Below, one piece after another: positions 16,791 through 19,308 of a stretch of DNA of 64,000 bases. The stretch covers positions 124,001 to 188,000 of the forward strand of contig NZ_NOIT01000002.1 in assembly GCF_004136555.1 (NCBI RefSeq). The letters are read 5' to 3'. Made by a program: the position numbers and the translations under genes. Each line of letters starts with the position of its first letter. Positions within the stretch are counted from its first letter, which is position 1. The notes under the pieces were generated by a model, which had not been told where the DNA came from, did not search any database, and was given only the letters and a program-made list of their open reading frames with translations. Origin of the DNA: Kocuria carniphila. GTDB lineage: Bacteria > Actinomycetota > Actinomycetes > Actinomycetales > Micrococcaceae.

Positions 16791-17153
16791 CTAGCCTGCT
16801 GGGACCGCGAAGTCATCCGGTGGATCATCCCAGCGGGCGGCGCTCATCGCCACCTGTACCAAGTGGGCGTCGGTGTCCTTGAGGGGTGTGCCCTCGTTCA
16901 CGTAGTGCTCGCGGGCTGCGATCTGCAAGTGATCCGGCAGGGAGCCGTCCGCTCGAACGATCCGCCACCAGGCGACGTCGTCCCCGGCGAGACCGCGGGA
17001 CATGATGCGCGCCGCAAGCCTGGCCGAACTCAGCCCCGCGAGTTCGGCCACATCACCGTAGGACAGGACCGAACCGGGCGGTACCAAGAGGACCACGTTG
17101 CGCACTGCTCGTGCGGCGGCGTCTCCGGTGAGCGGGTAGGGCGAATCAGGCAT
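16791..17153 (-). CDS. Alkyltransferase-like (ATL/MGMT-fold) DNA-binding protein
   Basis: A 120-residue protein starting MPDSPYPLTG at ATG 17153. It has the MGMT winged-helix fold: VPPGSVLSYGDVAELAGLSSARLAARI and WWRIVRADGSLP. The Pro-Cys-His-Arg acceptor motif of true methyltransferases is absent and Trp-Trp-Arg takes its place. ATL proteins bind O6-alkylguanine and hand it to nucleotide excision repair. The start overlaps the end of the histidine kinase gene by 8 bases, which suggests one transcript. The link to the kinase has no obvious logic. Confidence 0.85.
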   Translation of the reverse strand: MPDSPYPLTGDAAARAVRNVVLLVPPGSVLSYGDVAELAGLSSARLAARIMSRGLAGDDVAWWRIVRADGSLPDHLQIAAREHYVNEGTPLKDTDAHLVQVAMSAARWDDPPDDFAVPAG

Positions 17154-18375
17154 CGCCAAAGGGGATCCGCACGTCCAGAACCCATCGATCGTCCTGGGGG
17201 CCGTAGGTGACTTCACCATTGAGCAGCGCAACGCGCTCCTGGATCCCGTGCAGACCGTAACCGGAGGTCATCGGGAACTCACCGTCATCGGACCTGTATG
17301 ACTGCTGCAGTTTGTTCTCCGTGCGGATCATCACCGAATTGGCATCCGTGGTGAGCGACAGCAGGCATGTCGAGCCCGCAGGGGCGTACTTGATGATGTT
17401 GGTGGACGCCTCCTGGAGGATGCGTGCCGCGGTACCGCGTACGGAGGTGGGCAGTTTCTCGAAACCGTCGACGGTGTTCACGGTGACCGAGAATCCGGCT
17501 GCTGTGAGACTCGCGCTCAGGGAGTCGACCAAGCTTTCCAGGGAACCGGTCGTCAAACCGGACGAGTTGTCATTGCGGCTCACAGCGCCCGGGGATTCGC
17601 GCAGAATGTGCAGCAGAGTACGCAGTTCCTGCAAGCCAGAGCGGGCCGCGTTCTCCATGGTGGAAATGGTGTCGTGCAGAACTACCGGGTCGTTCTGTCG
17701 GTGGGATCCCGCGGCCTGCATGGTCACCAGGGTGAGCTCGTGGGCGACCACGTCGTGGAGGTCACGTGCGAGCTCCAATCGTTCCTGTTCGCGCAACTGC
17801 TGGTGAGCGGCCTCGATGCTCCTCAGCCGCGCTTTGTTCTCGCGATGCTGGATCACAAAGAATCGCAACGCCACGCCGATGAGCACACCAGTCACCAGGG
17901 GCGTTCCCATGATCCACAGAACGTCCGTGGTGCTCTCCACCACCACGGCCGTGATGGTCCACGCTGCGAGGATCACGCTGTAGATGATGGTCATGACCCG
18001 AGGCAACATGCTCACCGTGGCAATGGTGACGATGACCGCGCAAATCAGGGTGAAACCGTAGTTGTGCGTGAACAGTGCGAGAGCCAATGGAACCAGAAGT
18101 AGGGCGCTCGCAATTCCCGGGCGCCACGCGATCAGTGCCAATGAGACGTAGCCCAGGATCATCTGAACGGCAATGACAACCATCGTGGCGGGGGCTTGAT
18201 CCACCGATTCCAGCGCCCGAAGATCGTCGAAGAGCGCGATGGCGGCGAAAAGTACCAGTGTGACTCGAAGCCAGACCGGGAGTGGGCTGGTGCGGTTAAA
18301 TCCCTCCCGCACTGAGGTGGAACCAGCCGGTGCGGCGATTACCACCCGCCGCAGAGTTGGGGGACGTACCGGCAC
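17146..18375 (-). CDS. NarL-type sensor histidine kinase with six membrane helices
   Basis: 409 residues from GTG 18375; GTG 18345 is an alternative, and neither has a clear ribosome-binding site. The first about 180 residues are six hydrophobic segments without an extracellular domain. The HisKA_3 motif ELARDLHDVVAHELTLVTMQ follows with the phosphorylated His near residue 206. The HATPase_c domain has ILQEASTNIIKYAPAGS (N box) and SGYGLHGIQERVALLNGEV (G box). Its 5' end lies inside the small secreted-peptide gene, so translation is probably coupled. The partner regulator is divergent at 18571. With little sensory domain outside the membrane, a membrane-associated or peptide signal is likely. 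Confidence 0.92.
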   Translation of the reverse strand: MPVRPPTLRRVVIAAPAGSTSVREGFNRTSPLPVWLRVTLVLFAAIALFDDLRALESVDQAPATMVVIAVQMILGYVSLALIAWRPGIASALLLVPLALALFTHNYGFTLICAVIVTIATVSMLPRVMTIIYSVILAAWTITAVVVESTTDVLWIMGTPLVTGVLIGVALRFFVIQHRENKARLRSIEAAHQQLREQERLELARDLHDVVAHELTLVTMQAAGSHRQNDPVVLHDTISTMENAARSGLQELRTLLHILRESPGAVSRNDNSSGLTTGSLESLVDSLSASLTAAGFSVTVNTVDGFEKLPTSVRGTAARILQEASTNIIKYAPAGSTCLLSLTTDANSVMIRTENKLQQSYRSDDGEFPMTSGYGLHGIQERVALLNGEVTYGPQDDRWVLDVRIPFGDA

Positions 18376-18548
18376 AGGACGCTACCGGGTCCCTTTTCCG
18401 CCGGGCCCTGCTGAGCACTCAAGGTGGGGCCACCCAGGGTGAACAGGAGCGAGCACGCGATCAGAGCTGCTGCGAGGGCTCGTTTGAAACTCGTCAAAGA
18501 GCCGGTTTGGTCAGCATGGATGCGGGAAATGGCATGAGGAGAGTTCAT
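18339..18548 (-). CDS. Small secreted Cys-X6-Cys peptide, candidate signalling peptide
   Basis: A 69-codon gene encoding MNSPHAISRIHADQTGSLTS, then a basic-hydrophobic signal (FKRALAAALIACSLLFTL) and a likely signal peptidase site after LSA. The predicted mature part is about 24 residues, QQGPAEKGPGSVLCRYVPQL followed by CGGW, and its two Cys could close an eight-residue ring. It overlaps the start of the histidine kinase by 37 bases and is divergent from the response regulator. A TAAACT -10-like element ends six bases before the ATG, so the message may be leaderless. I know no described family. A non-functional exported leader or a chance frame is possible, but the signal peptide and position argue for a real gene. 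Confidence 0.6.
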   Translation of the reverse strand: MNSPHAISRIHADQTGSLTSFKRALAAALIACSLLFTLGGPTLSAQQGPAEKGPGSVLCRYVPQLCGGW

Positions 18549-18570
18549 GCCATCAGTTTATGATCAGATT
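18549..18570. promoter_or_regulatory. Overlapping divergent promoters of the peptide/kinase and regulator genes
   Basis: Only 22 bases separate the two start codons. On the plus strand TATGAT (18559-18564) ends six bases before ATG 18571. On the minus strand TAAACT (18560-18555) ends six bases before ATG 18548, with TGCACA 17 bases upstream (complement of 18578-18583). Both mRNAs appear leaderless and the -10 boxes overlap, so firing of one should interfere with the other. Confidence 0.55.
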
Positions 18571-19308
18571 ATGAGTTTGTGCACCCTTATTTTGGTAGAT
18601 GACCATCCACTCATGCGTGACGCGTTGCGGAATTTATTCGATGCGGAGCCCGGTTTTCAAGTTTTGGGTGAAGCGTCGGAGGGCGCGGAGGCGGTGCAGA
18701 AATGCCTCGAGCTTGACCCGGACGTGGTGCTCATGGACATCAGAATGCCCGGAATGGATGGGATCGAGGCCACTGCTGAGATCGTTCAGCAAGCTCCGCG
18801 TTCAAAAGTTTTGGCTCTCACAACCTTTTCTACTCTGGAGTATGTTGTCCCGGCACTGAGAGCGGGTGCCTCCGGATATCTGGTCAAAGACGCCCGACAT
18901 GAAGAAATTGTTTCGGCGGTGCTGCAAGTTCGCGAGGATGAAATGACGCTGTCGCAGTCTGTGGCGAATTCGTTGGCCAACAATGTTCTCGGTGATGTGC
19001 CCGTTCCCTCGGTGCGCAGAAGTCGGAGCGCAACACCCAGTACACCGCCCGCGGCCCCCGCCGCAGCGAGCCAACAATCCTTCGTGCCGGACCTGACCGC
19101 ACGGGAACTGGAAACCCTGCGCTGGATCGCCAAGGGGCTCAACAACAATGAGATCGCGGACCAGATGAAGGTCTCCCACGGCAGCGTCAAGGCGTACGTG
19201 TCCCAGCTGTGCGACAAATTGGGTGCACGGGACCGCGTGCAGGTGTTGATCGCGGGCATCCAGAGCGGTCTGGTCGAGCCCGAACTGACCGAAGATCTGA
19301 CGCAGTGA
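18571..19308 (+). CDS. NarL/FixJ-family response regulator
   Basis: 245 residues from ATG 18571; ATG 18547 in frame is less likely. The receiver domain has LVDDHPLMRD, the phosphorylated Asp near residue 56 in VVLMDIRMPGMDGIE, and the conserved Lys in GASGYLVKDA. A Pro/Ala/Ser-rich linker at about residues 150-172 is longer than usual. The LuxR-type helix-turn-helix follows (LTARELETLRWIAKGLNNNE then IADQMKVSHGSVKAYVSQL). It pairs with the divergent kinase. The N-terminal half is visibly lower in GC than the C-terminal half. Confidence 0.93.
   Translation: MSLCTLILVDDHPLMRDALRNLFDAEPGFQVLGEASEGAEAVQKCLELDPDVVLMDIRMPGMDGIEATAEIVQQAPRSKVLALTTFSTLEYVVPALRAGASGYLVKDARHEEIVSAVLQVREDEMTLSQSVANSLANNVLGDVPVPSVRRSRSATPSTPPAAPAAASQQSFVPDLTARELETLRWIAKGLNNNEIADQMKVSHGSVKAYVSQLCDKLGARDRVQVLIAGIQSGLVEPELTEDLTQ

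Follow-up and report, generated by a model that had tools for sequence, protein, structure and literature searches.

A two-cysteine ring peptide gene tied to a six-helix HisKA_3 kinase and a divergent NarL-type regulator: a likely peptide-signaling module of Kocuria and other Actinobacteria

Can a gene of 69 codons supply the signal for the two-component system that it adjoins? The question is raised by a locus in the window, the 64,000-nucleotide stretch of Kocuria carniphila DNA analyzed here (contig NZ_NOIT01000002.1, positions 124,001 to 188,000), where a small gene lies between a sensor kinase and a divergent response regulator. An earlier note on this DNA had read the layout as a peptide-kinase-regulator circuit, a reading that is now supported by an intact peptide gene in 53 of the 70 loci of the same sensor family. 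The three genes form a conserved module, most likely a variant of the peptide-signaling two-component systems with a two-Cys ring, a Sec-type leader, no constant maturase and a divergent NarL-type regulator. Its parts in the window are the following.

18339-18548, minus strand: precursor gene of a Cys-ring signal peptide, 69 codons, with the leader in about codons 1-45 and the mature part in about codons 46-69 (18342-18413)
18351-18374, minus strand: predicted ring CRYVPQLC (C-X3-P-X2-C, codons 59-66), based on the sequence and the motif in relatives
17146-18345, minus strand: six-helix HisKA_3 sensor kinase, with a putative GTG start at 18345 that overlaps the peptide stop
18571-19308, plus strand: NarL/LuxR-type response regulator, divergent from the peptide gene
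18549-18570, no strand: 22-bp divergent intergenic region with the strongly conserved element TGATCATAAACTGA (18553-18566, 14 bp), from a 12-locus alignment

The open reading frame (ORF) at 18339-18548 starts with ATG and its product ends in SAQQGPAEKGPGSVLCRYVPQLCGGW, also given as GPGSVLCRYVPQLCGGW. The leader, mature end of about 24 residues and Cys-X6-Cys ring ascribed to it earlier were all recovered: the ORF is intact, the ring spans Cys59-Cys66 (C-X6-C) and the predicted mature part comprises residues 46-69 (24 amino acids). Trp is the last residue of the window peptide, which is not so in most relatives. One minor correction concerns the cleavage site. The leader is Sec-like, with a basic N-terminus followed by a hydrophobic stretch, but the likely cleavage site, between LSA and QQ, is not the ideal A-x-A. 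No Pfam or NCBIfam model was found over its cut-off for the ring peptides (five scanned in Pfam, five in NCBIfam). The overlap of the peptide gene with the 5' end of the kinase gene is confirmed by the open kinase frame, which runs from 17146 to 18375; the likeliest kinase start would be the GTG at 18345, overlapping the TGG-TAA of the peptide gene. Likewise, the divergent gap of 22 bases between peptide and regulator holds from ATG to ATG (18549-18570). The regulator ATG that fits the relatives is the one at 18571; a longer frame for the regulator, beginning at 18547, is open as well.

The kinase carries HisKA_3 (PF07730) and the neighboring regulator a receiver domain (Response_reg, PF00072) and GerE (PF00196), all over the Pfam cut-off, so that the pair belongs to the HisKA_3/NarL two-component systems. 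In an AlphaFold model built with 29 relatives, the kinase is predicted to consist, ahead of its core, of six membrane-type helices without an extracellular domain (residues 34-55, 62-81, 86-103, 106-123, 126-147 and 151 onward). The joining loops have only 2-6 residues, in agreement with the six helices and the near absence of an extracellular domain described in the earlier note. The predicted local distance difference test (pLDDT) reaches 81-93 per block in the membrane region, while the whole-chain predicted template modeling score (pTM) is only 0.44.

The peptide gene itself was judged by its pattern of substitution. Among four close relatives the mature part shows nonsynonymous distances (dN) of 0.02-0.14 versus synonymous distances (dS) of 0.20-0.95, with dN/dS values of 0.04-0.15 over six pairs. 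Four more distant clade-1 pairs yielded 0.10-0.33 over the last 26 codons; a fifth, G234 versus G083, was dropped from this comparison because a C-terminal indel misaligns it. The peptide frame is under purifying selection: the gene is real and selected as a protein, and its translation is well supported.

The same gene is retained across Kocuria. A kinase search of 27 genomes listed 48 matches, 30 of which were retrieved as loci; in a contig collection, kinase relatives carry the names K. marina, K. varians, K. rhizophila, K. salsicia, K. tytonicola, K. tytonis and others. Ahead of the kinase, 29 of the 30 loci (all but L055) have a signal-peptide-like ORF with a pair of C-terminal Cys, and at least one module is present in 24 of the 27 genomes. 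Genome G120 contains kinase and regulator without the peptide, and neither G251 nor G302 (76% complete) yielded a kinase match at the limit applied. In all 19 loci of clades 1 and 2 (12 and 7, respectively), an alkyltransferase-like gene and purC stand behind the kinase. Neither was matched in the other 11 Kocuria loci, and clades 1 and 2 were therefore taken as orthologous, with clades 3-5 and L055 lying elsewhere. Seven fully flanked loci (L132-L138) share the order lldP, gntR, regulator / kinase, alkyltransferase-like gene, purC, purD; the flank of L131, the eighth named Kocuria locus, is incomplete. Orthologous loci that keep kinase and regulator with a broken or missing peptide had been named in the earlier note as evidence that would speak against the gene. 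They were looked for, and the peptide is intact at all 19 syntenic loci, where its gene in every case immediately precedes that of the kinase and is transcribed away from the regulator; peptide-less loci occur only outside that group.

When the peptide itself was searched by tblastn against 395 genomes of the family, 241 were matched at an expectation value (E) of up to 1, nearly all by chance. The twelve matches that adjoin a kinase were kept (E from 1e-43 to 0.024); those in G128 and G170 (E of 4e-4 and 1e-3) were dropped, as they are not beside a kinase and appear by eye to lie inside other ORFs. In the eight named loci L131-L138 the peptide was within the E-value limit in five and was read directly in the other three.

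Beyond Kocuria, the module was traced with profile A2, made of 29 rows of the kinase membrane domain only and containing no peptide sequence. With nine candidates scored per genome, it matched at least 61 of the 395 family genomes, in 8 of 32 genera. The 70 loci compared comprise the 30 from Kocuria, 37 non-Kocuria loci from A2, L139 (Raineyella, found through kinase similarity), L212 and L213. In 53 of them, from nine genera and two orders, the space between the divergent regulator and the kinase holds a small ORF whose start resembles a signal peptide and which has a C-terminal Cys ring. By group, it was detected in 29/30 loci of g1 (Kocuria), 7/7 of g4, 9/9 of g22, 2/2 of g27, 1/1 of g31, 2/2 of g14, and in the single loci of Raineyella (1/1), family f3 (1/1) and family f11 (1/1); g24 (0/14) and g12 (0/2) gave none. 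The same rule was satisfied in only 1 of 70 mirrored antisense windows and in 1 of 63 other HisKA_3 kinases (L188), the latter being L146-L210 minus L149 and L187, with the window set from the start of the kinase ORF. In most of the sensor family the peptide is a fixed component of the module, and the regulator is divergent from it in 53 of 53 loci. The sensor profile also matched at least 4 of 396 genomes of the order (including the source genome and one known g24 genome) and at least 1 of 396 of the phylum, the source genome. A plasmid collection held no kinase match at E of 1e-30 or below; a contig collection gave none with the kinase as a single protein, while the alignment query did match.

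The rings of these 53 loci follow a recognizable pattern. X6 rings predominate (42 loci), next to eight X5 and three X7 rings. Position 5 of the X6 rings is occupied by Pro 22 times and by Gly 17 times (39/42), and most residues at positions 3 and 4 are aromatic or hydrophobic. Ring types of clade 1 include CRFFPIYC, which is that of the laboratory species K. rhizophila, CGYLPLLC and CHYWPVLC. The ring of Raineyella antarctica (Propionibacteriales), CYYLPWLC, is close to the CYYVPFWC of two Kocuria genomes. Over the same loci, the sensor part of the kinase is on average more distant (0.77) than the kinase core (0.62). Once kinase-core distance is removed, a partial correlation between peptide and sensor distances is left (r of 0.31 over 53 loci and 0.54 over 21 loci), which was reached in none of 2000 permutations in each case. 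This co-divergence fits a ligand and its receptor and is no proof of it.

From these data it is probable that the Sec-exported disulfide-ring peptides are the cognate ligands, and probably the autoinducers, of the HisKA_3/NarL systems next to them, each forming a stand-alone module. We infer secretion, ring closure, binding and autoinduction as follows. The precursor would be exported by Sec and its leader removed by signal peptidase I. The two C-terminal Cys would then form a disulfide ring outside the cell, of eight residues in the window peptide. Judging from linkage and co-divergence, the ring peptide would be recognized by the six-helix membrane domain of the adjacent kinase. The kinase would in turn phosphorylate the divergent NarL-type regulator, its presumed partner by linkage. 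This regulator probably acts on the shared 22-bp promoter, and thus on the synthesis of peptide, kinase and regulator, as well as on targets elsewhere; such feedback is suggested by the layout. For ring closure, the source genome encodes two VKOR homologues. In Actinomyces oris, VKOR and MdbA catalyze the oxidative folding of Sec-exported proteins (PMC5478893). If housekeeping secretion and oxidation are enough, this would explain the absence of one constant exporter, maturase or protease.

A broader proposal is put forward with somewhat less confidence, though we still lean towards it: an actinobacterial class of pheromones, Sec-exported and cleaved by signal peptidase, that form disulfide-ring signals without maturase or exporter and are read by six-helix HisKA_3 kinases. 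It would extend over at least nine genera and two orders, with parallel and probably orthogonal circuits per strain, some of them wired to a bacteriocin-type cluster. Two clades do occur together in one genome, namely clades 1 and 4 (G005, G308) and clades 2 and 3 (G206, G259, G281).

Several points weigh against a ligand role. The A-x-A pattern is present in 44 of 52 distinct peptides versus 41.1 expected from shuffles and is not above composition, so that this motif was rejected as proof of secretion. The peptide distance correlates equally with the sensor and with the kinase core (r of 0.83 each, 53 loci), and the partial r falls to -0.02 within the 12 clade-1 loci; co-divergence fails there and is not claimed as decisive. 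The peptide is lacking beside 14 g24 (Arthrobacter-group) and two g12 kinases of the same sensor family, as well as at L055. No regulon was identified through the promoter element in the source genome. Finally, the detection rule was formulated with the first peptides already known, so its sensitivity is not independent and the controls speak for specificity.

The peptide-less loci are of two kinds. L055 and the two g12 loci, which lie outside the syntenic group, keep the kinase and a divergent regulator, in g12 with almost no gap between them. In g24, which includes a contig of Arthrobacter sp. GMC3, the fourteen kinases (L092-L105) retain the sensor-domain family and no peptide or regulator match was found in the retrieved pieces. 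They are possibly orphan receptors.

The main rival is that the small protein stays anchored in the membrane and that its Cys-ring tail modulates the adjacent kinase in cis, where the Cys could also report the redox state outside. MgrB provides the precedent: it is a small bitopic protein with two essential outside Cys, thought to be disulfide-bonded, that binds and inhibits its kinase (PMC10576120). A cleavage motif that cannot be told statistically from composition and the window leader without an ideal site would suit such an anchored protein. However, the leaders resemble ordinary Sec signal peptides, with a basic start, a hydrophobic core and small residues. The segment that joins core and ring is highly variable, whereas the ring keeps its place at the very C-terminus; the peptide gene is linked to that of the kinase and has diverged along with it, and the Cys of MgrB are spaced more widely (C28-C39). 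On balance, a permanently anchored modulator is unlikely, yet not negligible.

It is more doubtful still that the kinase senses the membrane or envelope itself, as DesK or LiaS would, with the peptide being a secreted product, for instance an antimicrobial, that is merely controlled by the system. DesK does head the solved structures nearest to the kinase core, and a weak match to LiaS was found; the top structure matches cover the cytoplasmic core and leave the six-helix sensor region unmatched. The lack of an extracellular domain and the bacteriocin-type cluster that adjoins the clade-4 modules (see below) point the same way. Against it, no immunity, transport or modification gene stands beside the window module, the neighbors vary between clades, and the clade-4 cluster includes its own candidate precursors, which are rich in Ser/Thr/Gly. 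The peptide is retained beside the same sensor domain despite differing surroundings. A spurious ORF, conserved only through its overlap with promoter and kinase coding sequence, is hardly credible: the frame does run a few bases into the kinase start and lies over the promoter, but its mature part evolves at the low dN/dS given above and it is still kept where 35-288 bases separate its end from the start of the kinase match, in clade 2 and the other groups, Raineyella excepted.

For the signaling module proposed here, the shared promoter region deserves a closer look. Two further features are placed in it.

18555-18560, minus strand: putative -10 TAAACT for the transcript of peptide and kinase, 6 nt upstream of the ATG, presumably leaderless
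18559-18564, plus strand: putative -10 TATGAT for the transcript of the regulator, 6 nt upstream of the ATG, overlapping the opposite -10 by 2 bp

Because TATGAT and TAAACT each lie 6 bases before an ATG, two overlapping, leaderless and divergent promoters are proposed, and the 14-bp element at 18553-18566 appears to be a candidate compact bidirectional promoter. Its core GATCATAAACTG is strongly conserved in the regulator-peptide gap of the 12 clade-1 loci. Hexamers resembling a -10 were also seen by eye about 6-7 bases before the peptide ATG in genera g4 and g22. The source genome contains one exact copy of the element and three copies with two mismatches (versus 2 for the backward control pattern); with its single exact copy, the element was rejected as a regulon motif. 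In the clade-2 loci L043 and L045, an inverted repeat, GAGCAGCAC ... GTGCTGCTC, lies on either side of C-rich tracts ahead of the peptide genes and is possibly a leader structure or an operator.

The neighbors of the window module are the alkyltransferase-like gene (ATL), purC, purD, gntR and lldP. The first of these, of the DNA_binding_1 family, lies at 16791-17153 on the minus strand and overlaps the kinase stop; it may be co-transcribed with peptide and kinase. Pfam scans covered 27 neighbor proteins from 12 further loci and Raineyella, only part of all neighbors. The families vary: GntR, alkyltransferase-like, nitroreductase, betaine/choline/carnitine (BCCT) and major facilitator superfamily (MFS) transporters, luciferase-like, ATP-binding cassette (ABC) permease, aldolase, epimerase, citrate synthase, beta-galactosidase, oxidoreductase and others, with several proteins lacking a family. 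An MFS gene stands behind the kinase in both g4 loci scanned. Among these scanned neighbors, no single exporter, maturase or protease family recurs beside the module. The earlier statement that no exporter or protease is adjacent stands for the window module; at two paralogous clade-4 loci a cluster with a transporter and a protease adjoins.

L230 2948-14815 (G005), with a counterpart in L231 (G308): thiazole/oxazole bacteriocin-type cluster beside the clade-4 module

In both genomes the regulator of the clade-4 module abuts LanB-type genes (Lant_dehydr_N and _C), homologues of which were found in the clade-4 loci of these two genomes and in no other of 231 loci. In G005 they are accompanied by a SagD-type YcaO protein, SagB-like proteins, an M50-type protease and an ABC transporter. 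By eye, the genes of G308 appear to be arranged identically, though its LanB reading frame is broken up. Three short ORFs, noticed by eye between SagB and the protease, have Ser/Thr/Gly-rich ends and look like the precursors of the cluster. As the cluster has these candidates of its own, the ring peptide is thought unlikely to be its product. In Firmicutes, the control of bacteriocin-type clusters by peptide pheromones is familiar logic, and the adjoining cluster is for this reason a candidate target of the clade-4 regulator. The arrangement fits the pheromone interpretation and, less well, the antimicrobial one.

Two loci stand apart. L091 (G148:C96), on a 3.9-kb contig of a g4 genome, closely resembles the Kocuria clade-2 module, possibly owing to horizontal transfer or assembly contamination. 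In a Micropruina metagenome-assembled genome, a short ORF ending in NNVLCRILPVLCGR (L188 3305-3457; ring type C-X3-P-X2-C) lies directly upstream of a HisKA_3 kinase that was matched only in its core; this may be chance or a distant relative.

Peptide quorum sensing is textbook knowledge for Firmicutes. For Actinobacteria, a review deals, in the part at hand, with gamma-butyrolactones, and for Kocuria and Arthrobacter only with LuxR-type homologues (PMC4748050). No description of the present system was found in the open-access literature searched; an earlier account is possible in subscription papers or bioRxiv preprints. If the proposal is true, Actinobacteria would have a directly testable form of cell-cell signaling through a three-gene, maturase-free ring-peptide circuit. 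Candidate mature peptides could be read from genomes and synthesized as simple disulfide rings. The module would also be a compact, possibly orthogonal signaling part with natural specificity groups, and a route to what switches on the bacteriocin-type cluster of clade 4.

With a dedicated peptide gene linked to kinase and regulator, the module probably belongs with the peptide-pheromone two-component systems. ComA, the regulator of ComQXPA in Bacillus, is likewise of the NarL type. The small signal-peptide gene of ComQXPA stands, as here, beside a PF07730 kinase whose membrane part has numerous helices and whose sensor domain varies, and gene overlaps occur; in a census, no comQXPA locus is reported outside Firmicutes (PMC4008528). 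Unlike ComQXPA, the present peptides have a predicted two-Cys ring instead of a modified Trp and a Sec-type leader, and the regulator is divergent (53/53) instead of following the same-strand X-P-A order. No ComQ-like isoprenyl transferase was found among the window neighbors or the scanned neighbors of the 12 loci and Raineyella.

In the Agr system (AgrBDCA), a small macrocyclic peptide involving Cys, the AgrD-derived autoinducing peptide (AIP), is paired with a six-helix kinase that has no large extracellular domain. The small predicted Cys ring beside a six-helix kinase is similar. However, two Cys are present here, presumably in a disulfide and not a thiolactone, the kinase is HisKA_3 and not HPK10, the regulator is NarL-type/GerE and not LytTR, and no AgrB was found among the scanned window neighbors or syntenic genes. 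The kinase core and the lack of an extracellular domain recall DesK-DesR. DesK is not known to have a peptide partner, whereas here a peptide gene is linked to the kinase. In MgrB-PhoQ, too, a very small protein acts on a sensor kinase; its N-terminal part is hydrophobic and its two Cys lie outside (PMC10576120). In contrast to MgrB, which is retained in the membrane, the present gene is physically tied to that of the kinase, and ring and spacing differ. Set beside these systems, the three-gene arrangement in several actinobacterial groups suggests a peptide-based communication circuit not described so far.

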